Notes under the pieces: generated by a model
Told to the model about the DNA's origin: nothing
The model's database searches: none
What the model saw: only the letters and a program-made list of their open reading frames with translations
Source: Diphasiastrum complanatum
Lineage: Eukaryota > Streptophyta > Lycopodiopsida > Lycopodiales > Lycopodiaceae
Length of the DNA: 64,000 nt
Reading direction: 5' to 3'
Assembly (NCBI GenBank): GCA_029204225.1
Contig: CM055109.1
Location: 942,673 to 1,006,672 of the forward strand
Made by a program: the position numbers and the translations under genes
Shown here: positions 5,146-42,008 of the stretch, one piece after another
Position numbering within the stretch: position 1 is the first letter of the stretch
Layout of the letters: every line of letters starts with the position of its first letter

Positions 5146-5985
5146 CTGCATCTCGCAGGTGTCGTGGGACCGCCACCAGATTTGGTGGGGGATACCGTTG
5201 GAGGGTTTGCGGATCTCAAAGCAACCCTAACCCTAGTTAATAAGTGAGAGGGATTTGGCACCCTGCGTGTATAAGTCCAACCCAATGATCACATAGTTAT
5301 TTGATTAATTAGAAAGTCAATAAAAGGACTTTAGGTCTTTTTGCGGGACTTTTAATGTCGTAGGGCCTAAATGTCAAGTTAGTGAATAAAGTTGGGTTTC
5401 CCTCCAATTTGGATGGTTCCCACTCTTTTTTAAATTTGAATATTTAGGGAGGCAGAAATGGACCAATAGGATTCAGAGGCCAAGGTCCTCCTCTTTACTA
5501 TAAAAAGGGACCAACTCGAGTTCCTACAGATGTTCATTTTCTCATTTCAATAAAGCAGATTGGTTCCCTTGTGAAATGGATTGATGAATGTCCTTGCTCT
5601 CTATTATTTTTCCTCCATCTCTCATGTTTTATTTGGATATTTCTAATTGTTGGATCTGATTGTTATTGGGATTGCATGTTATAATACTTTTTATGAGAGA
5701 GAAAGAGTAAGCTATCTTTGTTCAAGATCTAGTGTTAATGGATGTAGTGTTAATGTTTAGTGTTAATGGATGTTAGAGTTAGATGTGGATCTTCATTCAT
5801 GCTGAAATCTGAACTATATTATCGCTCTCATGGGAACGAATCTATGCGTGACAACTAACTTCATCTCTTTGATGCTAGATTGACTAGATCTTGGTCTGAG
5901 TTTAGGCAAGGAAAGAAACCCACTTCAATTCTTTTGTTAGCTTTAAATATTTATGATCACAAGGCTGAGAATGGTGGTTATTCTA
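5146..5985 (+). promoter_or_regulatory. LTR-like region with TATA box and poly(A) signal
   Basis: This noncoding stretch after the gypsy ORF has a TATAAAAA box at 5499-5506 and an AATAAA at 5549-5554, about 50 bp apart, as expected for the U3-R part of a 3' LTR. A G-rich run near 5180-5192 could be the polypurine tract. The exact LTR borders cannot be set because no second copy lies in the window. Confidence 0.45.
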
Positions 5986-6044
5986 GTTTGCAAGCACCCA
6001 AGTGATTATTTTGAAAGATGATATCGATTTGAAGCTTGTACCAA

Positions 6045-6045
<1 letters not shown>

Positions 6046-6141
<96 letters not shown>

Positions 6142-6167
6142 CGCGCGCGCGCGTGCACGTGTGTGCT
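6046..6167. repeat. GT microsatellite passing into GC and GTGCAC
   Basis: About 43 GT units are followed by about 10 GC units and a short CGTGCACGTG block. Alternating purine-pyrimidine of this length can adopt Z-DNA. The long Cys-Val and His-Thr frames here are artefacts. Confidence 0.95.
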
Positions 6168-7046
6168 GTTGGCTGATTCTAACGAATCCCCAAGATACTC
6201 GGACAGAGCAACTCAAGAGCACCTCTCACCTTAGACCGAGGAGGTCTCTGAGAAGACGAGACTAATGAAGACTAAGAGCCGAGTATGAGAGCCGAGAAAT
6301 GCTAGTTAGGAATGACAAGCAAGAACTGTGTAAGCCTCATGGTGAATTCCGGAAGATGGAATGACCATGTAGGAACTAGTATTTCTAGGCAAATGTAATA
6401 TATGCAAGTTGACCCCTTTTAAAGAAAGTAGAGTGAGCCACCTTTTGATGGTGACCTCTAGTGGAGAGCATTATTCTACTTGTAATTTGTGAAATGTGAA
6501 AATTCCACTAGGATGCCACCTAAGGAGCTCTCTTGCTTATTTAAGAGACTCCCTCTTTGTGAAGAGGAGCTTTTTGTGAATTGTATCTACTCCATGCTGA
6601 AATGAGAAGAGCCTTCATGAGGTAGATGCATCTATTGAGCTCCTTGATCATGATGGTTTTCTTGAGTGATGCCCCTATGATCATGCCCTTCCATTCATAT
6701 TGTGTGAGGTTCCTCACAATCTCAGCCGACCAACTCCATGCCAGACCACAGAATTTTCAAACGACACCTCTGATTGGCATTTCGACTGAACCACCATCTC
6801 CCCAAGCCTTAGAGGTTGGAAAAAAAAAAAAAAAAAAAAGCATGAACACCAAAAAAATTTCAAAAAATAAAACTCATACCAATAGAAAGCCCTTTTCATA
6901 CTAAGTCTCCACTTTCACTTCCTTCAACACCCTAAAAATCTAAAAAAATCCAAAAACCACCAAAAATCTAAGAACACCAAAAATCCTAAAAAATCCAAAA
7001 ACACCAGAAACACATACCCAACACAAACAAGACACAACAGTACCCA
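6168..7046 (+). promoter_or_regulatory. Probable LTR or leader upstream of gag
   Basis: A TATTTAAG box at 6538-6545 is followed by an AG/CT-rich leader, a poly(A) run (6819-6839) and an A/C-rich untranslated stretch up to the gag start. This fits U3-R-U5 plus leader of the gag-bearing element downstream. I could not recognise a primer-binding site or an LTR duplicate. Confidence 0.35.
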
Positions 7047-8441
7047 ATGGACCAACATACAGATCCTCAACTCCCAGACGATTATCCATACGAGATAAGG
7101 TCCCCTACAACGGAACAAATCAGACGTCATAGGTTCTATCGAATGCGGGCCCAAATACACGAGCCATCCAAAAACCCATTCAAGGAACAAGAACCTGATA
7201 ACGATGAGTCTTCACGAGCACAAGCCCATTCTTATGGTGCTGACCCCTCGCAGGCCAGAACCAATCTTAATGGTGCTTCTACTGCCCACGGTGCTCATCT
7301 TAAAAGACGTACACCCAAGCTAGATCTACCAAAGTTTGACGGTAGTTCGGACCCTCAAAGATTTTTGCAAATCTTTGAGAATGCATGTGATGTGTATGGC
7401 GAAACATCCCTCGATGCTATGGTCCAACTATTTTCGATGACCATGATCGCTAAAGCACATGATTGGTTTTCTAACCTTGATCGTGACGAAAAGACAGACT
7501 GGTCAATTTTGAAAGAATTCTTTATCAAGCGTTTTAAGCCCTTTCGCTTGATCGAGAGCCCTTTTGTCAAATTGAGTAACATCAAAATGGCTAGAGACGA
7601 ACGTGTACGAAACTATATTGAGCGTTTCAAACGCCTCAAAAGTCAAGTCCAAGAACAGCCCTCAGAACAGATGCTCATCATCTGGTTCCTAGTCGGACTT
7701 CCAAGATGGATTAGACGCGAGCTTAAATCCAATGATGAATATATGAGCCTAAAGTTAGCTATGTATGATGTCATCAAACTAGAAGACGAGGGATCAGATG
7801 TTGACGAACCCAGGGAAAGGCGAGCACTACGTGCCCTTGTCCATGAGTCGAAACTGATCGAGGACACCCGAGATCAGCTTTGGAAATCCCAGTTGGAGTT
7901 GCTTAATAAGCAACATCAGCTACAGATGGAGAAACTCACCAATGAGTTTCAAACTACCTTGAAGTCTATCCAAAGCAGTATGCCTGGTCAGCCAAATCCT
8001 GCACATGTATCTTATAGACGAAAACCAATATGGTGCCCACACTACCGGGCTATGCATCCTACTGATGCTTGTCCTTCATATTGGCCTATCCAAACACATA
8101 CAGTCCAACAATATGAAGAACACCCATCACAATCTGGAAATGCCTTGTCTTATCATGAATATCCACCAGAAAGTCCAGAACCACTAGCCATACAAAATGG
8201 CTAGGCCGTTATACAAGGGCCCTTGCACACCAAATGTTTCATCTGTGGTGAAACCGGCCACTTCATGGTTGATTGTCCAGTTAAGACCCAGTTCCATGCT
8301 GAGTGTCCCGATTGTATCAGAAACATAGTTTCAAAGACTGTCCAAAGCAACCAACTAAGATCCTACCTACCCGTCACGTTAGTTATGACTCCCGATAGGA
8401 TCCTCATGACAACACAACACGAGCACCATAGCACCCAATAG
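7047..8441 (+). pseudogene. Ty3/gypsy gag with zinc knuckle, one internal stop
   Basis: The first 385 codons are open. A disordered N-terminus is followed by the capsid-like retrotransposon gag domain (LDLPKFDGSSDPQRFL, AHDWFSNLDRDEKTDW, FKRFKPFRL-type motifs, YIERFKRLKSQV) at about residues 90-230, then a coiled coil (residues 270-315). A TAG at 8202 interrupts the same frame, which resumes with a CCHC knuckle, CFICGETGHFMVDC, so the stop is probably a mutation. Gag packages element RNA into cytoplasmic particles. No protease or RT can be read after 8441, where the sequence decays into short frames. The start ATG at 7047 is the first in frame after a long A/C-rich leader. Confidence 0.85.
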
Positions 8442-17780: not shown

Positions 17781-17861
17781 GTATTTTTATGTGACTTTCA
17801 ATTTATTCCAGAAGTTTTTATTTCTAGTTCTTTACAGTAGAAAATCAGTAAATTAGAAACT

Positions 17862-18470
17862 TTGTTGTCTAAATTTAAAGATGTTTGTCCTGAAGATTTA
17901 CCACATGGTTTACCACCTAGCAGAGAGGTAGATCATGTAAAAAACCTAGTACCAGGTACAGCACCTGTTTCTAAACCCCCGTATCGGGTCAGCCGAACAG
18001 AGGATGAAGAAATAACTAGGAAGTTAACAGATTATCTTGGGAAAGGCCAAATTCAGACCAGTAGTTTACCATGGACCTCACCAGTCCTTTTGGTGAAAAA
18101 GAAAGAGGGGTCTATGCGTCTTTGCGTAGATTACAGAGCCCTCAATAAAGTCACAATTAAGAATAAGGACCCAATGCCTCAAGCAAACGAGTTAGATGCT
18201 AGCGACTTTGTAGTTGGTGTCGTACTAACTCAGAGTGGACAACCAGTTGCGTTCGAGAGTAAAAAACTCGAGCCAGCACAGACTAAGTACAGTGCCTATG
18301 AAAAGAAACTCTTCTCCATAGTTCACGCCCTTAAGACTTGGAGGCATTATTTGTATGGTGCCAACTTTGAGGTCCTGACAGACCATGAAAGTCTCAGATA
18401 CCTTTGCAATCAGCCTGAGCTTAGAGGTCAAAAAGCTCGTTGGGCTGAGTTAATACAAGAGTTTGATAGG
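17862..18470 (+). pseudogene. RT joined directly to RNase H by an in-frame deletion
   Basis: The RT begins normally ([57 protein letters not shown]) and then jumps, in frame, into RNase H ([39 protein letters not shown]). The palm with the YxDD catalytic motif and the thumb are absent, so no reverse transcriptase activity is possible. RNase H ends at IQEFD, where a second deletion fuses it out of frame to the integrase. Confidence 0.9.
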
Positions 18471-18478
18471 CAGGAGGG

Positions 18479-18985
18479 TTGTTACAGCCCTTGGATATAC
18501 CAACTGGTAAATGGGAGAGTATCTCCATGGATTTTATAGTAGGCCTGCCAAAAACCCAAAATGGTATTGACGCTATATGGATCACAGTTGACCGTCTAAC
18601 CAAAATGGCTCACTTTATTCCGACCAAAGCAACCGTTAGAGCTCCAGAGTTAGCGAGGTTGTTTGTAGATGGGCTATTTAAATTGTACGGTCTACCTTCC
18701 GGCATAGTCAGCGACCGGGATAGTAAGTTTAATGAAAATTTTTGGAGGGCAGTATTCCATCATCTCCATACTAAACTTAATATAAGTACTATTGACGGTC
18801 AAACAAAAAGAGTAAATCAGGTGCAAGAGGATATGCTTCGAGCATACGTCAGCAAAAAGCAAACCAATTGGAGGAGTATCTCTCGATATTAGAGTTTGCT
18901 TATAACAGTACCAAACACTCAGCTATAGGATACAGCCCATTTATGCTGATGTACGGTTTTCAACCACGCTCACCCACAACTGTAG
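18479..18985 (+). pseudogene. Chromovirus integrase core, 5' part of split gene
   Basis: Catalytic core with the D-D-E set in [18 protein letters not shown] and RVNQVQED. The zinc-binding N-terminus was lost in the upstream deletion. A frameshift near 18870 leads to LEFAYNSTKHSAIGYSPFML, and the frame then breaks at SPTTV, where the DNA transposon begins. It resumes at 27424. Confidence 0.9.
18982..18985. repeat. Target-site duplication GTAG, left
   Basis: Pairs with 27420-27423. Collapsing the two copies restores the chromovirus codons for Thr-Val-Gly-Phe. Confidence 0.8.
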
Positions 18986-19800
18986 AACATGATGACCAAA
19001 AAAAAAGAAATGACATGGAGATCTATTTTTTTCAAAAAAATTTATTTTTTTTTTAAAAAGTATCCAAATTTAAAATACTTCAAATAATATATTGTAATGT
19101 TAAAAAAAATGTTGTATTTTGCAAGAAAATTAATCAAGCTACAAAAATTTGGTCAATAGATTTTCATTAATAACTTAAAATTAGCTTATATAAAATAATA
19201 ATACTATTCAAAATAAAATCATTAGATACACAACCACTAGAATAATTAAAAAAAAAAATTGCTTATTTAAAACAAAAGTCTTAGTTTTTTTTTTTTGAAA
19301 TTTTAAAAAAATTTTAAATTACAAATCTTGTATTAAAAAATATATTTTTTAAATTACGATAAAAATTTTAATCAGTATTTTCTAAAGTTTTAAAATTTTT
19401 ACTTATATAATTTTCAAATACCTATGTAAGTTCATTGAATATTTAAACATTAAATAAATGCAAATGAGATTACTTTACAATAATTGAGATTAAATGATTT
19501 GTGAAAATACTTAAATCACCTTGAAAAAATCTTTCCATTTCTTTAAATCCCTAATAATATTTTTTTTACAAAAAATATTAAAAAACACATCCAAAATTAG
19601 AATATTATAAACTTGACAATTAGTTACAATTTTAGTTTTGCTAATGATTATTAATGTTAAAATTTTTAAAATATTTAAAAATCTTAATTTTAAATTCTTA
19701 AAAGACAAATTTAAGAACATTAAATTAATCAAAAAGATTTCAAAACACAATACATCAAAAGATATAAACGCAATTATTCTTGAAAATAAAAGAGAATTTC
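18986..19800. other. AT-rich left terminal region of the DNA transposon
   Basis: Very AT-rich, with poly(A)/poly(T) runs and no coding signal. Short frames at 19511-19810 are low-complexity Ile/Phe/Lys strings. Confidence 0.7.
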
Positions 19801-22800
19801 TTATTCCCAAAAATCATCGAGATTATTTACATATTTTTCTTTTTTTTGAGTAGCCACTGTAGTTTCAAGTGGCACCTCTTCTACAGTCTCCTCGACTACC
19901 GTAACCACATTATAATCTTGAACCAAGACATCAACAAATTCTCCTGGATCGCCTACTTTTTCGCTAGCAGGAGGCTGAGGTTCCTTAGACAAGGGAATAC
20001 TGAGTCCTCGCTATCTAAATTCTTTCCCATTTCAAATAGTTCATCTGGCAAAACTGAAAGAAATTTCATTCTCATTTTTACAAAATCAACTAAATTGGAA
20101 TCTAAATCTACTGCAGCAACATGTCTGTCTTTCTGAATAGCACATGCGCTCGTGGTGCCGCTATCGCTAAATAAATCCAAAACTCAATCAGCTGGGTGAA
20201 AAAAAATATCAATTAAATGATTAATTAATTGTTGTGGCTTTTGGTAAGGACAAGCCACAAAACTCGTCATTGGATTCTTCAGTTTTTTGGTCACGGCTGG
20301 ATACTGGAACAAGTTTCCAAAACTTGTCAGTTCGAAAGTGTTGTAGTGAAGCATCGAGCGTTTGCCATCTAAAGAATAATAACCGATGGTTATGTATTCT
20401 ATTTCATTGCAAAGTCATGCTCCTCCCGAGTTTCTGACATTGGGCTTGTACCTGACATGGAACATTACAAGTAAAATAAATAAAAAAATTGAACTTTAAA
20501 ATAAAAAATTTAAAATATAATTATGAACTAAAATACGAATTAATAATTCAGGAACTTAAAGGCTTACCACACATCATTTTTTATTCCCACATTACAGAAA
20601 GTTAATAGAGCTTTCTGTACTGAAGCTGACTACCAAAAAGAATGAAAAATAACAACTCTCCAAATTGGAGTAGTTGTGACTTCGAGAAAACCCTGCATGA
20701 AACTATGGATTTCAGTGAATTTGAAAGAGGAATCATCATTTAATGATTGCTTCAACTGAAATCCATATGGTATATCGGCAATGCAGAGTGTATAAGGCCT
20801 TTTCCTTAAAAATTTTGAAACTACAATCGCCCTCCTTAACCGAGAAAAAGCATGGTTGATCATCGACACTTTTGGAAAGGTAGGTCTCTAATGGATCCTC
20901 CTCCGCAATAGTCTCACCCCGTGCTAATCTCTCTCTATCCTTTTTTTTTCTACTTTTGCCTTCAGAATATGTCTCTTGAATTGCTCTTGAAGGACTTTAT
21001 TTTTCTTATCTTCGGGAGACTGAAAAAGAAAAAGCTATGCTAAGCATAGAAAACATAAAATATTAAACAGAATAGGAAACATAAAATATTAAACAGAATA
21101 GGCAACATAAAGTATAAAAAGGAAACAATTAAATAAAGAAAAAACTATGCTTAGCATAGGAGACATAAAATATAAAAAAAAAAAACAATTAATAAGCACC
21201 TATGCTAAGCATGGTCGGAAGTAAATACCATGTCTCTAAACAAAATAAAAAATGTCATTTCGGCTGCTCAGAGAATAAAGCCTCTGGCACTCTTCGAAAT
21301 CTTGACAATTTAACCCTGTCACAAGGGCTTCTTGAACTTTTATAATAATTTATGCCTACATTTAAAAAGTGTAATTGTTAAAAATCTAACAAAATCATGA
21401 AAATCATTTTATTACAAAAAAACATAAAAACAAATATTTAAATTATGACTATTACCTTTGAAATTCTTTTCTCATTTCTACTAGAGAAAGTTGACCATCG
21501 GCAACTCTAGAAAGAACACTTATTATTAGCTCTAAAGAGCTAATCCCTTGCATGTCCTTCCACTCTGATATTCCCATTTCTGTAGGGATTAGCTTCAGAG
21601 TTTGAGTGCTGACAACTTTCTTCTTTGACTTTGAGGCACCCTGAGCAGGTTGGCCTTTTATTTGAAAACTTTCCCATATTTATCAACAAGGGCCCACACC
21701 TAAAATAAAAAAAAATTTAATTATTTGATAAGAAATTTAAGGGGTATTGAAATTGAGTTCAAAATTTTAGTTTGATAAAAACAATATAAAAGGATTGTAA
21801 CATACATTATGACCAAAGCATTCCATGACGAGCATAGCAAGAAAATCTACCTGGCCACTGCGAAAAGCAAGTTGAAAAAAATTATCATATCTTGTAAGGC
21901 TCTGCGAAGGATTTTTCGAATCAAAAGGCAGGCCTGTCTCTTGAGCACAAAGTGCTTTCAGCTCTAGTTGATTCACATCTCCTGCTTTGGAGACTCTCGT
22001 GTATTTTTTGTGAAAGAACCGAATTCTTTGTATGACGATCATCTTCATCCAATAGTCCTGATCAATATTATGGTCCCAAGCCAATAATTTTGCTTCTTCC
22101 ACTGTCAGGCCAGCAAATGCAATTGCACTCACAGTTCGAAAGGAAGGAATATGGAGATGCTCTTGAGAGAACTATTTTCGGGCTTGTAAACTGTGTATGC
22201 CCCCAAGAACAAAAAAATGATATGAATCTAATAAAGAAAAATCAAAATTTGCAACGTCATTGCATTCGTTGGGATCAACCAAAACAACAAATGGGGTAAC
22301 TATGGTCTGTGTATGATCTTTAAATTTTATTTTTAGATTATGTACATGTGTTTCATTTGGTTCTCTTACTTCCATTGGCCTATCTCCTGTTATTGAGTCT
22401 ACAGGTGGCCTATCACACTGATTTATATCTAAAATCAAAGTTGTTTCTCTAATTTTTTTTTGTTTTATGAATTGCTTCCCTTAATTTAGCAATTTCAGAG
22501 CTATCTTGTGAGGGGTTGATGGAGGCACCAGGTAAAGACATCGATGGTTCGATCATGGCTTTCTTGCTTTCAGCTGATGGAATGGACTTGTGACGATGTG
22601 TAGCCATGGTCTTTGGGCGGGACTTGGGTCTAGTGGGAGTGGACTCAGAAATATTATGTGATCTTTTTTTTTTTGGATGAGGAGCAACTACAGTATCATC
22701 CTCAACGTTTTCAAAGGCTGGCTTTGTGATCTGAGCAGTGGTAGAAGCAAGCTTGCGAGGTCCAATAGATATAGATTTTGAACTCCGTAATGAGTAGACA

Positions 22801-23421
22801 AGATTTTTTTCCCTCAACAATAGCAGCTAGCACCATTTTTAAGCATTGCTTCATGCTCTGGATAAAAACAAAAAGCAGGTTTAAAGTATAATGAGTAAAG
22901 GCATTTATATTGGCCATGCTCAACACAGGACTACTCAATTTACAAAAAGGTTTTCCACTTATAAGTTCATGGGAATTTTATATTTAGGTAACCACTATGC
23001 TATGCATGGAACACTTGTTAACATACATGAATAAGGTTTTATGATTACATACCAGAGTAACTAGAGCTTTATCAAAATAAGTTTTGACGGCCTCGTCATG
23101 GCAAAGTCGAATCTTTATCATAGTCTCGTTCAGAATGAAAATAGAACGAGACTTATTCGTCTCCTTTACAAGCACGTTCACAAAACTTTCTTCTTCATCC
23201 TCATCTGGTTGAGCAGCAAGCAATTTTCCTTGAATTGTGAACTGTGAGTCTCCCGTGCCAGACTTCTCAGCTAAATGAATAAAAAGTTCAAAGAGCTTTG
23301 TGTTGTTGACCCCTTCGGTGAAGTAATACATGAATTTTTTCTTATCCTTCAATGGAATATTTTGAAATTTACCCGAAATTTTAAAAGAAATCCTCGACAT
23401 TTCGTAGATTATCACAGACAA
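19801..23421 (-). pseudogene. ParB-like domain plus beta-class DNA N6/N4 methyltransferase, six exons
   Basis: Exons read on the minus strand: 23421-23053, 22857-21806, 21699-21456, 21355-21229, 21019-20568 and 20451-19801, with GT donors and AG acceptors. The last junction splits a Trp codon exactly (TG/G). Exon 1 is unfamiliar. Exon 2 has a Ser/Pro/Lys linker and then a ParB/sulfiredoxin-like segment (FFVLGGIHSLQARK, AFAGLTVEEAKLLAWDHNID). Exons 5-6 hold the methyltransferase: motif IV as IADIPYGF, then WRVVIFHSFW, WYKPNVRNSGG, HPAD and motif I as VLDLFSDSGTTSA with HVAAVDLDS. The IV-before-I order is the beta class (m6A or m4C on DNA). An acidic tail ends at 19801. Homopolymer frameshifts (near 22810, 22455) and stops (near 22165, 21640, 20175) show decay. 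Motif IV normally reads DPPY and motif I FxGxG; here they are DIPY and FSDSG, so activity is doubtful. Confidence 0.8.
21034..21215. repeat. Scattered palindromes of the TATGCTNAGCATA family in an intron
   Basis: Near-palindromes at about 21034, 21143 and 21200 (for example CTATGCTTAGCATAGG) lie in the intron before the methyltransferase motif IV exon, alongside a 30-bp AT-rich tandem unit (ACATAAAATATTAAACAGA). Confidence 0.7.
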
Positions 23422-23664
23422 TTGATGCAGAGAGAAAGATTCTTTAAAAAAATTTCAAACATTACCTTAATGAAAATACTAAAAACTTTAAATAGACATG
23501 TAGTTTTTGTGAAAAATCTCTAAAAATCATGACTAAAATTAGCAATTTCTGTAAAATTTAATTATAAATTCATAAGATTTATAAGCACATTTTCTTACTA
23601 AAATGTCTTAAAAGTTTCACTTTTCACAGATTGAGCCTTGCAAAATGGAAGAAATACGAGTAAC

Positions 23665-24250
23665 GACTATGCTGAGCATAGGTTGTGTTCGGGTCCTAAG
23701 TAACAACCTGTGCTCAGCATAGGAAGTCGTCGTGATATTTCTCCTCTTACCACCTATTGATCTATGCTGAGCCTAGGTTGTGTTCGGGTCTTGAGTAACA
23801 ACCTATGCTCAGCATAGGAAGTCGTCATGATGTTTCTCTTCTTATCACCTATCGACCAATGTTGAGCATAGGTTGTGTTCGGGTCCTGAGTAACAACCTA
23901 TGCTCAACATAGGAAGTCGTCGCGATGTTTCTCTTCTTACCACCTAATGCTGAGCATAGGTTGCTGCATCTTTGGTCCTCTTCTAACCTATGCTCAGCAT
24001 AGGACGTCACTCACGTCCTCTAGTCACAACTATGCTCAGCATAGGATGTCTTTGCATGCTACTTCATGTGCTGAGCATATGTTGTTACTCGGGACCCAAG
24101 CACAACCTATGCTCAGCATAGGTTAGAGGAGAAAACTCGTGCGGCTACCTATGCTGAGCATAGGTCACCCAAGTGTTAAGAAGATGAACACTAGCTAAAA
24201 CATGAATATTTAGTAATGCAATACTTTAGTACCCATGCTAAGCATAGAAC
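23665..24250. repeat. Palindrome array CCTATGCTGAGCATAGG between the divergent genes
   Basis: About 13 copies in both central-base forms (G or C at the axis) are found at roughly 23667, 23706, 23762, 23802, 23857, 23895, 23943, 23986, 24028, 24067, 24106, 24147 and 24230. The first six form three 95-bp units. In each, a copy plus GGTTGT pairs with a downstream ACAACC plus copy, giving a 20-bp stem with a loop of about 16 nt. Further copies lie at about 22988, 24770 and 24840. The position between the two gene starts suggests binding sites for the transposase, the ParB-like protein or the methyltransferase. Confidence 0.85.
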
Positions 24251-24441
24251 AAAGTTAAAAAATGACAGGATTCTTACCGTCAAGAAATGTGTGAGCGGAA
24301 ACGTACGCAAAATACTATAGAAACCCATGACTTTGTCGCAGCGAGAGCTCTGGCAGCATGTGTGCTTCTGAATTGGAAATGAGGCGAGTTATGCTTGGAC
24401 TACGATCCTTAAATATCTTTTTTCCTGTGACCCCTGTCTCA

Positions 24442-24600
24442 CGCCGACCTGGAGCATGCGCCAGGACCAAGTTACGGCGACTCAACTCACCTCTCGCCGA
24501 CCTCGAGCTTGTGCCGGGACTGAGTTGCCGCAACTCACCTCACCTCACGCTGACCTCGAGTTTGCGTCGGGACCGTCCAAACCTAAACCTAACCCTAAAC
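24442..24600. repeat. Three GC-rich 53-bp tandem units upstream of the transposase
   Basis: Units start with CGCCGACCT (or CGCTGACCT) at 24442, 24495 and 24548 and share GGGAC and CAACTCACCTC blocks. They are CpG-rich in an otherwise AT-rich element. Short AACCCTAA telo-box-like motifs follow (24580-24628). This may be the transposase promoter region. Confidence 0.7.
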
Positions 24601-24881
24601 CTACTCTTGGGTCAACCCTAACCCTAAGGATGCTACCAAATAGTATTTAAGGCATGGTAGCCACTGAAAATTTCAATTAACTAGATACTTGCTAGGCTTG
24701 TTGCTTATTTGCATTTAACTGTTTTTCTTGTTTACGTCTATTGAGGTTCGCATAGCTTTTTATTTGTTCTATGACCAGCATAGGATGTAGTTAAGTTTGT
24801 AAAGCACATATAGTTTTATGTGTCAACTATTTTAACGGGTCTATGCTTAGCATAAGTTTGTAGTTGAAATTTTTTTTTATG

Positions 24882-27113
24882 GTTACGATGTCAAGTAGTT
24901 CTACCTCCTCTATTCCAATAGTTGTAACTCAATACGTTGCAACAAGTGTATCATCTTCATCTGATATTCCCAATGAAAGCTTTTTTTATAAAGCCACTCC
25001 TAATTCTCAACATGTTTCCATAAATGATGTGGCATCATCATCATTTACCCGTTCATCTTCTGAAATTCCTCATGCAAGTACTTTTCAAGAAATGACACTT
25101 GTAACTCAACTTGTGTCAAATCTTTCGACCTCGTCCTCCTCTTCAGATACAGGCTCTGCACAATTAAAACATTGTTCTTTTGAACAAGTTGAATCACTGA
25201 GTGATGATTCAAAAGCTTCAATTCACTCGGTTACTGATTCTAGTAAATCAACAGATCCACGTAAGTCTGTTGATCCGTGACGTTCAAGCTTTTCTCACGT
25301 TCATGGGAGACCTTCTCAAAGTGATGTTCGTCGTGTTAAATCTAAAAGGGCTATATTATTGAAAATTTAGAGCCTTTTGAGAGTCCGGAACATCCTAAGA
25401 TTGGAGCCAAAATTTCGAGTCATGAAATTTCAACACCTTCTCAACCAGTTCAAGCACCTACTAGTGTCACGAGTTCAATTTATAGATCAGACTCCAAACA
25501 AAAAGGAAAATACAAGAGAGACTTGAGATCTTCAGCTGTTTTAACGAATCGTCAACAGTTGATTACAAAATCTGAGATTCGAAAGGTATAGAATATTATT
25601 TGCTGCTCATCCTGCTATTTGCAAAAACTGAGTATCAGAGAAATTGAAGAATTAAGATCAAACTTCTTTTTACGAGGTAAGGATGAGAGAAATTACTATT
25701 TGTGTGCAACAATGAGGCCATACAAAAACTCCTATTCATATTTTTTAAATGCTTTGGACGTTTGTCGTAAAGCTTACAAAGCAATTCACGCAAGCAGAAA
25801 CTCACAGGCTTCAACGAATGCATGCACGACTTCAAAAAGACCCAACATTATGGGGATCCTTACAGGGTCGAACTATTTCTCCAGATGCTTTAAATGCAAC
25901 TGCTTGGCTTTTCATAGATGTGCATGGAGAGAAATTGCCTAATTCCTTATATTTTCACTTGCCGGAGAATTTTACAAAATTAAAAATATTTTTGATGTAT
26001 AAAGAGTTTGCCAAAACAAAAAATGTTCCCTATTTGAGTTACTCATATTTTTTTAAAATTTGGAAAAGAGATTTTGGACTGGTAAAAATTTTCAAAAAAT
26101 CACGAATGACAGTATCTCCCTTTGCGAGTTGTTAAAGTCTTAAAAACAACTTGCAGAGACCAATGATGAGAAAGATAAATATTAATCAAATTTGTCATTC
26201 ATTTTAATACTTTTTGTTTTGAAAAAATTTAAGTTGCGATTTTTTCTAATATCATTATGGTATGATCTTTATTCCATTAAATAAGTGAATCATTGTATTT
26301 TCAATGGATGCTGCAAAAGCCCTTCAAGTGCACAGAGATCAACAAGCAGTTGAAAGACAAAAGTTGGCCAAGCATCGAAAGAAATGTTTGGAATGTCCAC
26401 AAAAATATTTGGGGCTTGTTATTGACACAATGGATCAGAAGAAAACAATTTTGTCAGAGTGCCCAAAAATTTGAACGAGACAAATTTTATTCAGGTTCAT
26501 CTCGTTGGAGCACCTGTGTTTAATGGCACTTTGGAGTCCAAAGTCTTTTTTTAATATCTCAATGTTCGCAACGATCCAAATTTGACGATCACCATTGTAC
26601 ATAAGATAATTTGGTAAAAACCTTCCGAAAATACTTTATTTGCAGTTTGACAACACTGCTAGGAAAAGTAAAAACCAAACTGTTTTGGCATACTTGTCCA
26701 TGCTAGTAGAGAAAAAAAATTTCAAAAAAAATAAAAATAGGATTTTTGTTGGTAAGACATACCCACGATCAAATTGATCAAATGTTTAGTTGCTTTTCTA
26801 AGAGGTTGAGATGCAAGAAAGCATTTTCATTACCAGTTCAAAGCATTGTTGAGGAATCGTATGTGCCAAAGCCAAACGTGCCATTGATCAGACATACATG
26901 ATTTTCGTGATTATGTTAAGGCGTCCAATGAAACAGAGCGATGCGTAGCTAATATTAATGATATTAGCTTTCAGCACCAGTTTAAAATCAAATGTAACGA
27001 ATTGACTCTCATGAAGAACGGGTCTTCCACTTAATCAGCTAAAAACGAGTGTTGAGAATATGTCAAGTTCTGAATTGAGAAGCATCAGTGAAAATTCCTT
27101 AGAAAATGTACTT
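24882..27113 (+). pseudogene. Transposase of the DNA transposon (HTHxxIDQxFS, DUF7869-like)
   Basis: The frame opens with a Ser/Thr-rich disordered N-terminus (ATG at about 24882 or 24894), runs past a TGA at 25278, and has a Cys-containing segment (about 25600, CCSSCYLQKLSIREIEELRS). Next come LDVCRKAYKAIHA, DALNATAWLF and PYLSYSYFFKIWKRDFG with a terminal Cys block near 26130. After a probable intron, 26293 onward gives LVIDTMDQKKT (about 26418), FLQFDNTARKSKNQTVLAYL (about 26640) and VRHTHDQIDQMFSCFSKRL (about 26752). The order of Asp-containing blocks and the HTHxxIDQxFS signature match eukaryotic proteins with the DUF7869 domain, often transposon-encoded. Several frameshifts and stops inactivate it. 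Confidence 0.78.
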
Positions 27114-27419
27114 TAAAAAAGAGAATGTGCGAATATAATTTAAGTTGTTTTGTATTTCAATGGGATTTCGAGTTTCAAAAATCATTTGTTCTCTTGAATT
27201 ATTATTTCATTTGTAATTATGATGGTTTTATAAAGTTTGCAACAAAAAACTTGTAGTTTTTTATTTAAAATATGCATTTTTTTGGCTTATTGTAAAAACA
27301 AAATTTAGAGATTTATTAAAAAAATCCATGATTTTGGCCTAAAACTAAGACCATTAAAAAACACCAAAAAAGATTACTATTTTTCAAGTCAAAAGTCCCA
27401 AAACAATTGTCATCGTGTT

Positions 27420-27423
27420 GTAG
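27420..27423. repeat. Target-site duplication GTAG, right
   Basis: Partner of 18982-18985. Confidence 0.8.
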
Positions 27424-28007
27424 GATTTAAACAAGAAAAAGTTGAAGCAGCCAAAAACTTTTTAGAAGACCTAAACCAAATGATAGAATATGTTAAGCAT
27501 AGCATTAGGCACTCCCAGGATCGAGCCAGACATTATGCAGATCCACATAGATGGGATGTGCAGTTCTCCACCGGTGAGAAAGTCTACTTGAAAGTCCCAG
27601 TTGACTCTAAAACTCTCAAATCAGGAGTGTGTGCTAAGTTGTCTCCTAGGCATTGTGGTCCTTTTACCATCAATAGGAGACTAGGCGAGGTCAACTATGA
27701 ACTAGAACTCCCACACAACAGTAAGGTTTTTCCAGTTTTTCATGTAAGTCAGTTACGAAAAGCCTTAACCAGATCAAAAAATCTGGTAGGGGATAGTGTT
27801 CTAGTTCTCCCATTGGATTCTCAGCAATCTCCACATGAACCAGAGGAAATTCTTGATAGTAGAGAGACGTAAACTCGTCATACTCTATACCGAGAATATC
27901 TAGTCAAGTCGAATGATCAGCCTGTTGAAAATGCCACTTGGGAAAGAGGCAACGTCCTTCGCAAGACTTTTCCAGACTTTGTCTTAGAGGACCAAGACGG
28001 TTTTTAA
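27424..28007 (+). pseudogene. Chromovirus integrase C-terminus and chromodomain, 3' part of split gene
   Basis: Reads on from the target site as GFKQEKVEAAKNFLEDL, then the GPY/F-type domain (LSPRHCGPFTINRR, NYELELP, VFPVFHVSQLRK) and, after an in-frame TAA at about 27868, the chromodomain (YREYLVKSNDQPVENATWER). It stops with TAA at 28005. It belongs with 18479-18985. Confidence 0.9.
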
Positions 28008-32945: not shown

Positions 32946-34578
32946 GAGTCTATGCAAGCTATGGTAAACTGATCTAAGTGGCTTTAAGGCTAGATTTCAG
33001 CACTGAGGTCCATGTCAAATAAGGACCGAGTGCCAAAGTATATGATCTAAATGTCAAATCATATGAGGACCCAAGAAGATGCAAATAAATTAAGATTGGA
33101 GCTCTCTGTTTTCAAAAATATAGCATGCCAACTGTTGTCAATGCTTAAGCCACAAAAAGCACGATGTCAATGTCACAACATGACGACAATACAGCAAAAT
33201 GCATATACTGGAGAATAAGACAAAAAAATGGATGTGCCAAAGTAGTTGAAAAATGGGATAATGATTGAGCACTTGCTGACTGTGGATCATGCTATATCAA
33301 TGGCCCAGAAATGTCAGATAAAGACATGAATATGAACAAAATAGTTTCAACACACCATAAACCTCTGCTGCAGCATATAGATACCATAGTGGTATGATCG
33401 AACAAGAATGTCAAGTAAAGAGATGAATAAGAAGTACAAAGCTAAGGCTGACAATAGAAAAGTCACCTAGTGTATACAAAAAGACACCAAGCTAGCCATA
33501 TGGACCATGAACTTCATAAAATATAGCAACAAAAAGCTCATAAGACACAACGACAGACCAAGTTAGTTGAATAGACCATGAATGCCAAGTACGAGTATCA
33601 TAGATGACACATGGCAAGAGGGCCAGCACTAGCTGCAAAGACCAAAGGTGTGATCTAGAAGAAGCAATTATTGGTTTAATATGACAAATAAAGCTCAATC
33701 TAGATTTCGCCGTGGCAAGACTCGGCTGCCTCGACCATGGAGTATACCCCACAAGAGAACTGTACTGAAAAGAATTGTCATGTTCAAAATGTTGTAAATA
33801 CCTCTGTAATGATCAACAAAAGATTATGTAATGATGGGTCAAGCAAAAAAAAAGAAAACATGTGTCAACAAAGGAAGTGGTGCCTTTAGGGGTACAACCC
33901 CTATCCAAATTATCTACCATAATAGTAAATATCAATTACATCAATGAAGAAAGAGAAATCAAGAAGGTAATAGAAAACAAGATAAAAACGTTACAAAAAG
34001 GCCATGAAATATAAGAGGGATCAACAAGATCAAGTCATGACTCATCATCTTTGATTGCAGAATAAGATAAGTATGGCAAAACATGTGTAACTCACAAACT
34101 GGAAGACGCAGCCACAAAAGGTGTGTCAACAAAAGTTGTAAAAACAACCATTATAAAGAAACAAATATACAAGGGGCATATGTAATACTTAGTAAGAACT
34201 TTAGACTGGAAACGAAGGAGATGGTGGTAAAGAGTGCTGACTTTGACCTATATGTACTTGTGACTCCTCTCAACTGACACCTAAAGATGTGAGGCTTGAG
34301 AATCTAACATAACTAATGTCCTTGCTCGTGGAGCTCTCTGCATAATTATATCTTAACCATACATATCTTCTACTACTAGTATCCATACCTCCAAATGTTG
34401 TGACTTTTTGTATATAAATGATCAATCTGAAAACAGCCTCCAATTGTATGGGAAGCACAAGAAACATGGCCACAATAATTTGGTGAGGAATGGAGTGTTT
34501 TTGCCACATATGATTCATGATACCATGGAAACCTATAGACATGAAAAGCTAGCCCAACCATGTATTCTAAGACTAGTA

Positions 34579-34583
34579 CACCA
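34579..34583. repeat. Target-site duplication CACCA, left
   Basis: Directly abuts AGTTATGG and matches 42430-42434. Confidence 0.85.
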
Positions 34584-34991
34584 AGTTATGGACTCGGCTC
34601 ATTACATTCGCCATGTCCATTTACATTTACTTTATTTCATGCATAAGCAGGACTTGGGCCCTTTTTTATTTATTATTGACACTTAGACTATATGGTCGGC
34701 CTTGGACCTTATTATTCATTATTTGGACATTTGGACATATTACTGGAGAGTGGGGGCCTTCTTGGAGGGCGCACTATTATTCCTCCCAGTTGGGCCCTAA
34801 CCACTGGAAGCTTCCTTTTAGGACTTCCTCTAGGCTATAAGTAGGGAATCTATGTCATTTGTTACTCGGCTGATGATATTGATCTCTCTCTTTAGTCTCC
34901 TTAATCTCTCTTTCCTGCTTTCTAGGGTTAAGTCTTGCTTATGTGATGCTTTCATATTAGCTCTAGATCAGTTGTGGTTGCATTCGTAACT
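34584..34991 (+). repeat. 5' LTR (408 bp)
   Basis: Contains a TATAAGTAGGG promoter box from 34836, followed by a CT-rich leader (TCTCTCTTTAGTCTCC). The termini AGTTA...TAACT form a short inverted repeat but lack the usual TG...CA. Confidence 0.9.
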
Positions 34992-35004
34992 TGGTATCAG
35001 AGCA
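34992..35004 (+). promoter_or_regulatory. Primer-binding site, initiator Met tRNA
   Basis: TGGTATCAGAGCA follows the 5' LTR with no spacer and is the standard plant retrotransposon site complementary to the tRNA-iMet 3' end. Confidence 0.9.
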
Positions 35005-35036
35005 CTTTCCTTTACACCACTTTTTCAGATTTAGTA

Positions 35037-35225
35037 GAGGCTGTCCAGCGTCCTACTAACCCATCACTTTCGTTGATTTTTTCATCAGATTTCCATCGTT
35101 TTTCCAGATTTGGTAGAGGCTGGCCAACGCTCTACTACCTTGTCACTTTCGTCGATTTTCTCCACCGATTTGCTGTGGATTGATTGGAGGCTGTCCAGCG
35201 CCCTACTTCATCACCATTTTCAGCA
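35037..35225 (+). repeat. Degenerate 71-79-bp repeats in the retrotransposon leader
   Basis: Three units start GAGGCTGTCCAGCG, GAGGCTGGCCAACG and GGAGGCTGTCCAGCG at 35037, 35116 and 35186. The long hydrophobic frames over 35110-35943 look like chance reading of this C/T-rich leader. Confidence 0.7.
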
Positions 35226-36171
35226 GTTTTTCCATCATTTTGCAGGACATTTGTGGATCTTACTAGCTGCTGCCCAGCACCCATTTTCAGCTTGGATCTT
35301 TAGCATTTTCAGCTTGGATCATCAACTATCTCTCTCTCTCCACTCGTTTTGCAAATTATCACTATCGTTTGGAGGAGGACTGGCGCCCTACTGCTGCCCA
35401 CCTACTGCCCATTTCCAGCCCACCATCACCTACTTCCAGCACCGTACTTTACTTTCCGCTTGCTATCCACAACTCAACCTATTTGTACTTTTTCCCAGCC
35501 CACCCCTCCCTGCATTGTCTCCACCTTCTTTCTATTTTCTAGCTTTGCTTGCTGGCTACCTAACCCTCTCTTTTGGCACTCACCTTCTTTACTTGGCTGT
35601 CCATTTTCTAGCCATGTACTCCACTACTTGCTACTTCTTTCTCTCATTATTTGGTTGTTTTTGCAGGCCCCTCTTATCTCTATTTGGTGGCTGCCCGGTA
35701 TCTCTCCATTTTACTACCGTTTTCAGCACGCTTTCAATTGCAGTTGCGAGGTACTACTTACACTATTTGTCATTTCCCTCTTTTTTTTTTCTTTCTTTAG
35801 CAACCTTTGTCACGTCTTCTCATTGGCGTACCTGTTGTGACGACTTACGTCATCTCCTTCAGTTCGTCCACTTGAGTAGCGTCTTGCCTGGCTTAATTTT
35901 CTACCTATGGCTGTTGTTTTGTTATTTTCATTCCATTTTGTAGTTTGTGTTTTCCATCGCATTTTTCATTTTGTCTTTCGTTATTTGTTATTAGTTTCCA
36001 TTCCATTTGCGTTTCGATTCCATAAGTCATTTTCATCGTCGATTTCGTTTTTCACTTTTTCTTCGTTTTCTACGCTCCATTATAAAAACTACAAAAATAA
36101 AAAACAACCCTAATTATTTGGATCATTGGGTTACATATTCTTTTCCGTTACTTTTAATTTTATTTTTTATC

Positions 36172-36684
36172 ATGACTTCTGATTTTCGGTCTCTATCCCC
36201 TTTAGATTATCTTTTTGTTTTTATTAGTGATATACCATCTGAACATATGTTCGACAAATGGCTCACACAGTTTCGGTATTACTTTGATACTTCTTAGCCA
36301 ACTTGTCTAGGTCCTAATAAGATTCTTGATGCAATTTTTCTCTTAGAGGGTTCTGCTAGGTCGAAGTGGTTTGACTATGTCCACTCTCATCCGCCTATCT
36401 CTGAGTGGCATGACTTTCTACCTGTACTTCGCCTTCTTATATTTTTCGATGATAATTCTGTATTTGTTCCTCCTCTCGCTCTTATGAGTGGTATTATAGG
36501 TCTTGAGAGTTCTACTCCTTCTGATTCCCCTCGTGAGCATTCTTCCATATGCGAGGTTCCATTTTCTTGTGCAGGAAAAATAGAGATAGAGTCACACATT
36601 TCTAGCAATTCACATGAGGTTGATTCACACTTTGCTAGCGATACACATGAGGATGATTCTATATCACACAGTGTGAGTTGTTGA
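36172..36684 (+). pseudogene. gag-like frame of the non-autonomous retrotransposon
   Basis: ATG at 36172. The frame contains a capsid-like pattern (FDKWLTQFRYYFDTS, then after a TAG at about 36297 ILDAIFLLEGSARSKWFDYV and ISEWHDFLPVLRLLIF), followed by an acidic Ser/His/Asp-rich tail ending at 36684. The pattern of Trp, Phe and Leu fits retrotransposon gag, which would let the RNA be packaged. No zinc knuckle is seen. A second frame with similar composition continues to 37024 and leads directly into the protease. Confidence 0.6.
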
Positions 36685-36790
36685 GTACTTTGATGCTACT
36701 CATGTTCTTGAGCGCCATGCTATAGATGTCGTCGCCTATGCTCCTTATTTCGATATTATTCATGGGTCTACAGTTGCTCTTTCAGGTGCT

Positions 36791-39700
36791 TTGGCTACTC
36801 CTCCAATAGATCTCCATATGGCATATGATTATACATTTCATGATGGTCCTATTGTATACTCACTAGCTTATTTTGCTGATAGTCGTCTAGATGAGTATGC
36901 AGTTCTTCTAGATGCATATTTAGGCCAGAACTTATCAGTTGATGCTTTTGTTATTATGCCTACGTATGTTGTTCCATTTGTGAATCATATTATTCTAGAT
37001 GCGGGGCGAGAGAATAATGCTTAAGTGGATACAGACAGTACACATTCATTTATTAGCAGTTACATTTCCACTAGGATTCGTGCTACACTTGTTCCTGCTT
37101 CCCAGCCTCTCAGTGTTGAGGTTGCTAGATCCCATTCTTTTCTCAGTTCTCAGATGTTTCAGGGCTTGGATTATCGCATTGGTGATTTTTCTAGTCAGGC
37201 AGATTTCTACATCATTCATCTGGAGCGCTGTGACAGTATTTTTGGTGCAGACTGGTTCTCTTCAATTGGTATTGTTGTTGTGGATATCTCTCAGCAGACA
37301 CTTTCCTTTACTCATGCTGGTCAGCATCATTCACTTGCTGCTATTGATTCCCAAGGTGACTATCAGTTGGTTACCGGGAAGCAGTTTATGCGTAGCTTGC
37401 CAAAGGCTCAAGGTGCAGCTCTTCTTTCCATTCAGAGTACATCAGTTGCTGCCTCACTTTCACCATCCATGCGTCCTCTTCCTCAGGTTGAAGTTGCTCC
37501 GGATTTAGAGGTTGTTGATGCGTGCCCTGTGCCTATATGCCTTGCTTCACAAATATCGTATTCAGTGGTCATTCCTGGTTTCATTGATATTGAGGTCGTA
37601 TACCTTAGTGGTATTTCTACTATTGCTTCTGTACATACCTCAGATAGTCCTCTTGGTTCGGTGGTTTGTGCAGTATCTTCGCCATTGGTCTCTATATCTC
37701 CATCTCGTGAGTCCGTTATGGTCGATGTTCCTACTGATTTCTCTGGGGTGGTTCTTCACGAGTCCACGGTTGGTGGTTTCCTCGCTCTTAGTGATCAAGG
37801 TATACAGACAGTACACATTCATTTATTAGCAGTTACATTTCCACTAGGATTTGTGCTACACTTGTTCCTGCTTCCCAGCCTCTCAGTGTTGAGGTTGCTA
37901 GGTCCCATTCTTTTCTCAGTTCTCAGATGTTTCAGGGCTTGGATTATCGCATTGGTCATTTTTCTAGTCAGGCAGATTTCTACATCATTCATCTGGAGCG
38001 CTGTGACAATATTTTTGGTGCAGACTGGTTCTCTTCAATTGGTATTGTTGTTGTGGATATCTCTCAGCAGACACTTTCCTTTACTCATGCTGGTCAGCAT
38101 CATTCACTTGCTGCTATTGATTCCCAAGGTGACTATCAATTGGTTACCGGGAAGCAGTTTATGCGTAGCTTGCCAAAGGCTCAGGGTGCAGCTCTTCTTT
38201 CCATTCAGAGTACATCAGTTGCTGCCTCACTTCACCATCCATGCGTCCTCTTCCTCAGGTTGAAGTTGCTCCGGATTTACAGGTTGTTGATGCGTGCCCT
38301 GTGCCTATATGCCTTGCTTCACAAATATCGCATTCAGTGGTCTCATTGATATTGAGGCCGTATGGTATTTCTACTATTGCTTCTGCACATACCTCAGATA
38401 GTCCTCTTGGTTCGGTGGTTTGTGCAGTATCTTCGCCATTGGTCTCTATATCTCCATCTCGTGAGTCCGTTATGGTCGATGTTCCTACTGATTTCTCTGG
38501 GGCAGTTACATTTCCACTAGGATTCGTGCTACACTTGTTCCTGCTTCCCAGCCTCTCAGTGTTGAGGTTGCTAGATCCCATTCTTTTCTCAGTTCTCAGA
38601 TGTTTCAGGGCTTGGATTATCGCATTGCAGATTTTTCTAGTTAGGCAGATTTCTACATCATTCATCTGGAGCGCTGTGACAATATTTTTGGTGCAGACTG
38701 GTTCTCTTCAATTGGTATTGTTGTTGTGGATATCTCTCAGCAGACACTTTCCTTTACTCATGCTGGTCAGCATCATTCACTTGCTGCTATTGATTCCCAA
38801 GGTGACTATCAGTTGGTTACCGGGAAGCAGTTTATGCGTAGCTTGCCAAAGGCTCAAGGTGCAGCTCTTCTTTCCATTCAGAGTACATCAGTTGCTGCCT
38901 CACTTTCACCATCCATGCGTCCTCTTCCTCAGGTTGAAGTTGCTCCGGATTTAGAGGTTGTTGATGCGTGCCCTGTGCCTATATGCCTTGCTTCACAAAT
39001 ATCGTATTCAGTGGTCATTCCTGGTTTCATTGATATTGAGGTCGTATACCTTAGTGGTATTTCTACTATTGCTTCTGTACATACCTCAGATAGTCCTCTT
39101 GGTTCGGTGGTTTGTGCAGTATCTTCGCCATTGGTCTCTATATCTCCATCTCGTGAGTCCGTTATGGTCGATGTTCCTACTGATTTCTCTGGGGTGGTTC
39201 TTCACGAGTCCACGGTTGGTGGTTTCCTCGCTCTTAGTGATCAAGGTATACAGACAGTACACATTCATTTATTAGCAGTTACATTTCCACTAGGATTTGT
39301 GCTACACTTGTTCCTGCTTCCCAGCCTCTCAGTGTTGAGGTTGCTAGGTCCCATTCTTTTCTCAGTTCTCAGATGTTTCAGGGCTTGGATTATCGCATTG
39401 GTTATTTTTCTAGTCAGGCAGATTTCTACATCATTCATCTGGAGCGCTGTGACAATATTTTTGGTGCAGACTGGTTCTCTTCAATTGGTATTGTTGTTGT
39501 GGATATCTCTCAGCAGACACTTTCCTTTACTCATGCTGGTCAGCATCATTCACTTGCTGCTATTGATTCCCAAGGTGACTATCAATTGGTTACCGGGAAG
39601 CAGTTTATGCGTAGCTTGCCAAAGGCTCAGGGTGCAGCTCTTCTTTCCATTCAGAGTACATCAGTTGCTGCCTCACTTTCACCATCCATGCGTCCTCTTC

Positions 39701-40146
39701 CTCAGGTTGAAGTTGCTCCGGATTTAGAGGTTGTTGATGTGTGCCTTGTGCCTATATGCCTTGCTTCACAGATATCGTATTCAGTGGTCATTCCTGGTTT
39801 CATTGATATTGAGGCCGTATACCTTGGTGGTATTTCTACTATTGCTTCTGCACATACCTCAGATAGTCCTCTTGGTTCGGTGGTTTGTGCAGTATCTTCG
39901 CCATTGGTCTCTATATCTCCATCTCGTGAGTCCGTTATGGTCGATGTTCCTACTGATTTCTCTGGGGTGGTTCTTCACGAGTCCACGGTTGATGGTTTCC
40001 TCGCTCTTAGTGATCAAGTTGTATCTTCTTCCGCTTTACTCCATGGATCTCTGCTTGAGGTTTGTGATCTGCCTCATGATATTTCTACAGTTCCTTACAT
40101 GATTCATGCGAGGATATTTGCCAGATGGTCACTAGTACTTATCTAG
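36791..40146 (+). pseudogene. Retropepsin-like protease region in four tandem copies
   Basis: The first copy reads, across a TAA at 37022, VDTDSTHSFISSYISTRIRA, FYIIHLERCDSIFGADWFSS, GIVVVDISQQTLSF: a retropepsin pattern (DTGS...F..DW) in which the catalytic triad is DTD rather than DTG. After a linker rich in Ser/Val the region repeats. Starts lie at 37031, 37804, 38502 (truncated) and 39250. Spacing is 773, about 673 and 773 bp, none a multiple of three, so each copy reads in a new frame and no polyprotein of four domains can be made. The last copy runs to a stop at about 40144. Confidence 0.85.
37031..40020 (+). repeat. Higher-order tandem array, 773/673-bp units in 1446-bp dimers
   Basis: Positions 37056 onward and 38502 onward match at an offset of exactly 1446 bp, and 37804 and 39250 likewise. 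The shorter unit carries the same kind of deletions (for example GGGGCAGTTACA joining across about 80 bp). This indicates one unit duplication followed by a dimer duplication. Confidence 0.9.
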
Positions 40147-41749
40147 GGTATTTATATGTTGGGATCTTTCTAGATGAGTATACGGGGATCCTTCTGTCTC
40201 CTTGTGTTTCTACATATAGGTTTGCTGCAATCAATGCCGATGGTATACACTTTTGGGATTTTTATGCATTAGAGGTTTTCATGCGACTGATTCCTTTCTA
40301 CCTCTTGATATTTGGCATTCCTGGTTATTATGTATCGCTTGGATTTCATTTGGACCTGTTCCTCATACTGCTGCTTCATTTTCAGCTATGGATATATGGC
40401 ATTCCTAGTTATTACGTATAGCTTGGTTTTCATTTGGACCTGTTGATTGGTGCTGGTTTTTCCATATTATTGCTCGCCTACGGTGCAGATATCTCTATGA
40501 TTATGCATGTGGCTCTCTATCTGTTCCTTGGATTGTTGCTCATTTTCAGGCTTGGCATATCTTGATGGCTTGGATTATTGCCTCCGTTCCAGCTACTGTT
40601 TGTCCAGGTGATCTTCAAGTTCCCAGTCATTTCGTGTTGCTCCATATCGCTTGCACTCCGATGCTGAGTTGCCACTTTGTTCTGGTGTTCCGAGACCATC
40701 AGAGTACCTTGAGAGAGTTCCTTCTTTTTTGGATAGTTTTTGGGGATGTTGCCGCCATACTTCAGTGTTGCTCATATATGCTTTGATACTCATTTCCAGC
40801 TACATGTGGATATTGCTCCGATGCTTGCTACTGATGTTGTGGATCATGTTCCTCGTTCTAGTGCATTTCTTCTATTCCTCACTTGTCCACCTGGTGTGTA
40901 CTTTGAAATTACACTTACGGCCAGTTTCGATGGGTCATCCGATTCTCCATCTGTTTTTGTTGCATCCTATGATGGATTGGTATGTCCAAATGAGGTCATT
41001 CTGGATGAGTATTTCGGCTACAGTTTTTCAGTTGGGGCCTCTACCATTTCTAGATTTGTTGCTACTGTTTTCACACATCATGTCTTTTTAGATGATACAT
41101 TGATTTCTTGCACCTTCTGGAGCTTTTGGCATCTGCTCTTCTCGTGATATGGCCCTTGAGGGTACCATGTGCCATTGCTACTTCTCATTCATGGGCCTTA
41201 TGGATACCTTGGGCTTTTGACCATGCTGGTGCACATTTCTCCATTCTAGCTATCCTTTGTCAGGATGATCTCTTTATGCTCCATGTTTCCTGGCATATCG
41301 CTTGCTTTTCCATGCTATTACAGCGTGCCTGTCATCCTGCTTATGTTCCTACTCCTTGGTGCTGGTCTTCCGATGCTGCTATCTTTTCTTGGGGCACCTA
41401 TATCACTGAGTTTGCACATATGGTTGATGGTTACGCGTATGATGCAGCTATTCGGGATGAGTGTCCATCTCTTTTCCAGCTTTCTTACTGGCTTCCCGTT
41501 GCTGATGCAGTTCTACCTTCTCAGGCTTTTTAGATACCTTGGTATGATGTCCCTATCTTTTGGGCTGATCCTCTACTATCTTGGGCATTACGGATACCTT
41601 GGCATTCCTGGTTGCTGCTTGATCTTCTTCTAATTCCTTGGCATTCCTGGTTGTTCCATATTGCTTGGTTTCGGATGATGCAGCCGAGATGTTCCCTTCG
41701 TTGCCACGATGTTGATCCTGAGCTGTTCCCTTTCTTACCAGCTGCCATT
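40147..41749 (+). other. Degenerate filler in the retrotransposon interior
   Basis: C/T-rich sequence with recurring phrases (GGCATTCCTGGTTATTATG, CATTTGGACCTGTT), including an 84-bp repeat at 40314 and 40398. Overlapping Leu/Phe/Ser frames have no domain. It sits where RT and integrase would be in an autonomous element. Confidence 0.6.
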
Positions 41750-41941: not shown

Positions 41942-42008
41942 TTGTTGATGCACCAGGGCTTCATGTTGTTTGATCCAGTTTTTTTTCGGCAATTGGGCCT
42001 TTTTTTTG

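Follow-up and report, generated by a model that had tools for sequence, protein, structure and literature searches.

The 64,000-nucleotide stretch of Diphasiastrum complanatum DNA analysed here (the window; C18:942673-1006672 in a 1.74-Gb genome) contains an old, dead copy of a family of cut-and-paste DNA transposons of ferns and, going by a protein identifier, Ginkgo (Table 1). Its two divergent genes encode a transposase and a ParB-like domain fused to a CcrM-like, beta-class DNA methyltransferase, and between them lies an array of palindromes phased to one face of the helix with a repeat of 10.3 bp. Our best reading is that the ParB part binds the array as a parS-like site and that the methyltransferase puts its mark on the promoter region, which probably stays active as a result. 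On balance we lean towards an element with its own self-recognition and DNA-marking protein that provides licensing or anti-silencing, and we favour this over autorepression because of the precedent of VANC, considered below.

A first-pass annotation of the stretch had proposed a bounded DNA transposon with inverted ends, a GTAG duplication and an integrase frame restored by its removal, and this proposal held. When the element and one GTAG are taken out, GFQPRSPTTV runs directly into GFKQEKVEAAKNFLEDL in an unbroken Ty3 pol frame, with RT_RNaseH (3.3e-29) before the insertion and SH3_Tf2-1 (8.3e-19)/Integrase_p58_C after it; farther upstream, this Ty3 copy is itself interrupted by stops. The ends of two more copies in this genome, L053 and L062, align from base 1 with the first and last 100 bases of the window element, and the boundaries of 18986-27419 are fixed by the restored frame together with these matching ends. 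The terminal repeats and duplication were rejected as proof in their own right, not being significant alone, as an 11-bp terminal repeat (at most one mismatch) with a 4-bp duplication occurs in 87 pairs in the window, where ~30 are expected by a simple calculation. Perfect 4-bp duplications flank three of the six copies with both ends seen (GTAG in the window, TGTT in L001, TATT in L053); among the remainder L062 is ambiguous, lying inside a GA repeat, and the duplications of L007 and L008 do not match.

Relatives supplied much of what the decayed copy could not. A search with the joined minus-strand reading returned 18 proteins, including one from Ceratopteris richardii and one from Adiantum nelumboides, and a scan of genome contigs returned eight loci (L001-L008), all in one public bin titled uncultured Trichormus (ERR2144891). 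This bin holds contigs that look like plant-host DNA; since the genes have introns and L001 is flanked by Ty3-like pol sequence, they are not bacterial, and their source is presumably the fern Azolla, judging from the identity of its cyanobiont. L001 is a complete element (698 to 8421, with ends AACACG...CGTGTT and a TGTT duplication) inside a Ty3-like pol gene, and complete copies in the family span 7.7-8.5 kb. Its ParB-methyltransferase gene has five exons, encodes a 960-amino-acid protein and is divergent from the gene for an 867-amino-acid transposase (DUF7869 at 3.7e-51). The divergent arrangement recurs in all five loci that reach the transposase side, the other three of the eight contigs ending in between. 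The annotated pair of divergent genes is right, and DUF7869 passes its cut-off in the window itself. Nor do relatives of the element keep their ends apart from the methyltransferase gene, the finding that would have spoken against the annotation: in L001 and L062 that gene lies within the shared ends. A transposase search of the whole bin gave eight contigs, namely those five plus L037, L042 and L043, whose sequence stops within or close to the palindrome array, short of any methyltransferase. Two further proteins, EukProt Gb_03516 (P0021, with N6_N4_Mtase at 29.4 bits) and Gb_30936 (P0107, a transposase), we take from their prefix to be from Ginkgo biloba.

Because the window pieces of the minus-strand gene pass neither the ParB nor the methyltransferase cut-off, the domain identification rests on relatives, and the annotated ParB and beta-class methyltransferase domains stand through these and not through the window alone. 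In the window the N6_N4_Mtase profile reaches E 0.025 (15 bits, below the cut-off of 26.7), the profile search gives no ParB match, and the ParB piece finds only chance-level matches in the PDB; the methyltransferase and ParB pieces of L062 have no Pfam match. The spliced L001 protein, by comparison, matches N6_N4_Mtase at 2.3e-16 (60.8 bits against the same cut-off). Motif IV precedes motif I, with ADIPYGF in all eight loci and VLDLFSGT in six, the contigs of L002 and L006 stopping short of the latter region, and the best solved relative by sequence is CcrM. Structural comparison shows the ParB N-terminal fold in the Ceratopteris relative, and the central helix-turn-helix DNA-binding domain of the ParB family is present; the absence of other folds from the structural match lists carries no weight. 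No match to the C-terminal ParB dimerisation domain was listed by profile or structural searches, and the methyltransferase occupies that place.

The transposase gene of the window carries in-frame stops and frame changes relative to its intact relative; the annotation was incomplete in passing over such damage, present in both genes, and in leaving the palindromes unmentioned. The DUF7869 domain is better preserved in L062 (4.1e-49). An RNase H fold was found in a relative, the transposase is of the DDD type, and in intact relatives it shows purifying selection. The best 120 of 324 matches to the transposase include Riccia, Chara, sea urchins, lancelets, mussels and corals. The model of the transposase P0022 has a C-terminal beta domain at residues ~700-800, and the Foldseek list for the model holds weak matches to BAH domains (EBS, polybromo).

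The palindrome CTATGCTNAGCATAG, allowing up to two mismatches, has 19 matches in the window, 18 of them inside the element, compared with 0.2 expected in shuffles. Fourteen of these 18 lie between the two genes and four within the methyltransferase gene, in putative introns. Palindromes occur in nine of 11 relative loci around a common core, ATGC-N3-GCAT (ATAC-N3-GTAT in some L006 copies), with arms that differ by lineage: AGTCGATRC-N3-GYATCGACT in most relatives, and ATCCGATGC-N3-GCATCGGAT in L037. Across the 5.9 Mb of the bin, exact CGATGC-N3-GCATCG is present 31 times, and every one of these sites falls on one of nine contigs that carry this element; read backwards, the pattern is absent from the whole bin. 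The window's own genome has 2,141 exact CCTATGCTNAGCATAGG sites and none read backwards; among its first 12 clusters, fetched as 11 stretches and all on contig C1, eight of the 11 stretches hold element DNA outside the array. The palindrome pattern also matches 28 stretches in IMG/VR. On C1, L052, L055 and L057 consist of tandem arrays of GACCTATGCTnAGCATAGGTC and GACTTATGCTnAGCATAAGTC without recognisable element DNA within ~5 kb, for which a satellite or another subfamily are candidate readings. Between the array and the transposase start, the intergenic region of the window also contains telomere-like CCCTAAA repeats (24583-24628; telobox-like by eye), and it has two 53-nt GC-rich tandem repeats (24438-24543).

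Centre-to-centre distances between palindromes in relatives (31, 41-43, 50-54, 62, 72 and 113) fall near multiples of 10.3 bp. The survey covered the window and eight relative loci known to hold palindromes, leaving out L003 (palindromes present) and L004 and L007 (none); the 5,000-trial test omitted the two distant copies of the window (24769, 24841). The observed phasing was reached in none of 5,000 trials in which each locus received one random shift, a null that preserves tandem duplication, and in none of 5,000 with uniform distances. For relatives alone the counts were 0 of 4,000 under each null, and for own-genome arrays (the window and 10 of the 12 clusters; the two excluded were one lone site and one pair spaced 558 bp apart) they were 3 and 5 of 4,000.

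These features suggest how the element might have recognized itself. Dimers of the ParB part would bind the palindromes, much as ParB does at parS, and cooperative assembly along a single face of the DNA may follow. The promoter DNA around the array would then be methylated at adenine, or at N4 of cytosine, by the methyltransferase, and the mark or the bound complex could license the element's promoters or hold off host silencing, an effect that VANC achieves by different chemistry. The first-pass annotation had proposed methylation of the element's own ends or binding sites; self-marking is plausible, the likely target being the internal array and not the ends. More tentatively, one can envisage ParB/parS-type self-recognition in plant nuclei, with a ParB-methyltransferase that loads on the phased promoter array and writes bacterial-type N6-methyladenine (6mA) or N4-methylcytosine (4mC) as a private epigenetic mark unread by host silencing, sites and protein co-evolving by lineage.

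The placement of the array bears on the alternatives. It lies ~205-330 bp from the methyltransferase start in L001, L002, L006 and L008 (274 bp in the window) and ~500-720 bp from the transposase start. This nearness to the methyltransferase gene, together with the presence of KorB, titled a transcriptional repressor, among the closest folds, would suit an autorepressor, in which the ParB-methyltransferase on the array shuts its own and the transposase promoters and limits copy number, like plasmid KorB or the Dam-controlled IS10. However, anti-silencing fits the anatomy equally well, in the window two imperfect copies (24769, 24841) are no more than ~110 bp away from where the transposase begins, and thousands of palindrome sites in one genome speak against tight copy control, and we consider autorepression unlikely. 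Dam methylation controls Tn10/IS10, and by that analogy the protein might instead mark or bridge element DNA to steer post-replication excision or shield the ends, but the palindromes found are internal, with none at the element ends, which leaves transposition control very doubtful. It is likewise quite improbable that the array is bound by the transposase or a host factor while the ParB-methyltransferase acts elsewhere or is a passenger: the transposase does have parts outside its RNase H core, but the array lies close to where the methyltransferase gene begins and, in the window, within it as well, a ParB-type dimer is well matched to perfect dyad sites, and the ratio of nonsynonymous to synonymous substitution rates (dN/dS) in the ParB exon is 0.07-0.08 between copies (two pairs, dS 1.7-2.0).

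A number of observations nevertheless weigh against a ParB-methyltransferase that loads on the array and marks it. Binding, methylation and effect are all steps that we infer. Most dS values exceed 1 or are saturated; the 331-460 block of the ParB model has a predicted local distance difference test score (pLDDT) of only 35-76; and its best structural matches have a high root-mean-square deviation. Motif IV reads DIPY (DAPY in Adiantum P0018) and not DPPY. L007 has both genes and no palindrome, its intergenic region being missing, and there is none in the short upstream part of L004, where the contig breaks off ~150 bp from the gene. In the genome of the window, phasing is less strong (mean cosine 0.43 versus 0.86), the family there being less tightly phased because of steps such as 54, and three of the 11 sampled own-genome stretches are palindrome-rich tandem DNA with no element within ~5 kb.

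Comparison with known systems places the element among precedents of several kinds. Given that ParB-methyltransferases are reported in transposons of brown, green and red algae (PMC12477816), the kind of cargo is already known. The annotation, which named no standard plant transposon class with this cargo, was wrong or incomplete on this point and on the resemblance to Sola, a known superfamily. In Sola1-1_Ec32 of Ectocarpus, as here, a protein with ParB-like and N4C/N6A methyltransferase parts stands opposite the transposase, and its authors state the same self-marking idea (PMC12477816). That element is 21.5 kb long and algal, whereas the complete copies described here are 7.7-8.5 kb and from ferns, and no palindrome array is mentioned for it in the passages of PMC12477816 available. 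Sola elements have a DDD-type transposase, a 4-bp duplication, lengths of mostly 2-9 kb and terminal repeats from 11 bp, and are present in a moss and apparently uncommon in flowering plants (PMC10741241); an 888-amino-acid Sola2 transposase with 4-bp duplications has been described (PMC3627910). Because duplication length, size and transposase type agree, the DDD-type transposase and 4-bp duplication being shared by both, kinship to Sola is likely, as judged by these descriptions and not by sequence.

In Arabidopsis, VANC, a protein encoded by the VANDAL transposons, reads motif arrays that differ between lineages and lie upstream or in introns of the transposon, and it causes loss of DNA methylation (PMC5735166). 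There, as here, a second gene of a plant transposon goes with such arrays, but VANC motifs are 9-mers in one orientation and ours are palindromes. The ParB/KorB/Noc proteins share with the present one the ParB N-terminal fold, the helix-turn-helix domain and palindromic sites beside the gene; the differences are the plant element, the methyltransferase that follows the ParB part and the lack of any ParA partner seen in the element. CcrM and the phage beta-class adenine methyltransferases likewise have motif IV before motif I, but with DPPY instead of DIPY.

The annotation also suggested a prokaryotic or phage origin of the module, the domains of which are of prokaryote type. Phage and plasmid donors were both considered, and none is named because identities among the records listed are 22-36% for phages (60 of 235 records) and 24-27% for plasmids (15 of 105). 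One phage relative is a stand-alone methyltransferase gene adjoining a second methyltransferase gene. In limited scans, which do not exclude one, 0 of 37 and 0 of 113 candidate stretches of viral contigs encoded a relative of the ParB or transposase alignment.

Among the papers listed by our literature searches, which mostly excluded subscription papers, we found none on a land-plant ParB-methyltransferase transposon, nor did the literature so searched yield this family in land plants, its DUF7869 partner, a phased array of palindromes or fold evidence for the ParB DNA-binding module. The words methyltransferase, fern, ParB and 6mA are absent from a review of gene capture by plant transposons (PMC13317346). 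If the proposal is true, a transposon built its own epigenetic layer from bacterial parts, in parallel to VANC in flowering plants. It is in our view an open question whether land plant nuclei make functional use of base marks besides 5-methylcytosine. With an enzyme, a target array specific to the element and intact copies in a fern, this family permits direct tests of binding and marking.

Table 1. Features of the transposon and its insertion site (window positions)
Feature	Position	Strand	Evidence
Whole DNA transposon, 8,434 bp	18986..27419	.	Restored Ty3 pol frame on removal; other copies end at same bases
Left target-site duplication GTAG	18982..18985	+	
Right target-site duplication GTAG	27420..27423	+	
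Left terminal inverted repeat AACATGATGAC	18986..18996	+	Ends of own-genome copies; L001 end AACACG
Right terminal inverted repeat GTCATCGTGTT	27409..27419	+	Ends of own-genome copies
ParB-methyltransferase gene, several pieces, decayed by stops and frame changes	19804..23400	-	
ParB-like part (FVLGGIHSLQARK; LAWDHNIDQDYW) of decayed gene	21770..22477	-	31% to L001, E 5.5e-56, stretch 21263-22477 read through; fold from relative
Methyltransferase motif IV region (IADIPYGF)	20588..20821	-	44% to L001, E 2e-17
Methyltransferase motif I region (VLDLFSDSGTT) and part before	20025..20447	-	37%, E 2e-21; N6_N4_Mtase E 0.025
Three palindrome copies between methyltransferase coding pieces (inferred intron)	21035..21214	.	
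Palindrome copy, 2 mismatches, inferred first intron	22995..23009	.	
Main palindrome array, core CTATGCTNAGCATAG, between divergent genes	23667..24163	.	
Further palindrome copy, 1 mismatch	24233..24247	.	
Further palindrome copy, 2 mismatches	24769..24783	.	
Further palindrome copy, 1 mismatch, just before transposase start	24841..24855	.	
DUF7869 transposase gene, decayed	24864..27031	+	Comparison with intact relative
DUF7869 domain piece (LVRHTHDQIDQMFSCFSKRL)	26710..26898	+	E 1.2e-14, 54.8 bits against cut-off 26
Host Ty3 pol, RNase H part upstream of insertion	17841..18539	+	Profile search
Host Ty3 pol, integrase C-terminal part downstream	27424..27872	+	Profile search

A Ty3-type pol gene hosts the element in L001 as well as in the window, and in Adiantum an integrase core (PF00665) is fused with DUF7869 in gene model P0101; this recurrent association is probably only due to the abundance of Ty3 DNA. 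Elsewhere in the window, a Helitron_like_N domain lies at 57601-58515 (1.1e-22), and the stretch 34001-42000, strongly skewed towards T over A (-0.22 to -0.40), has long frames that overlap and contains an RVP_2 match at 37025-38263.
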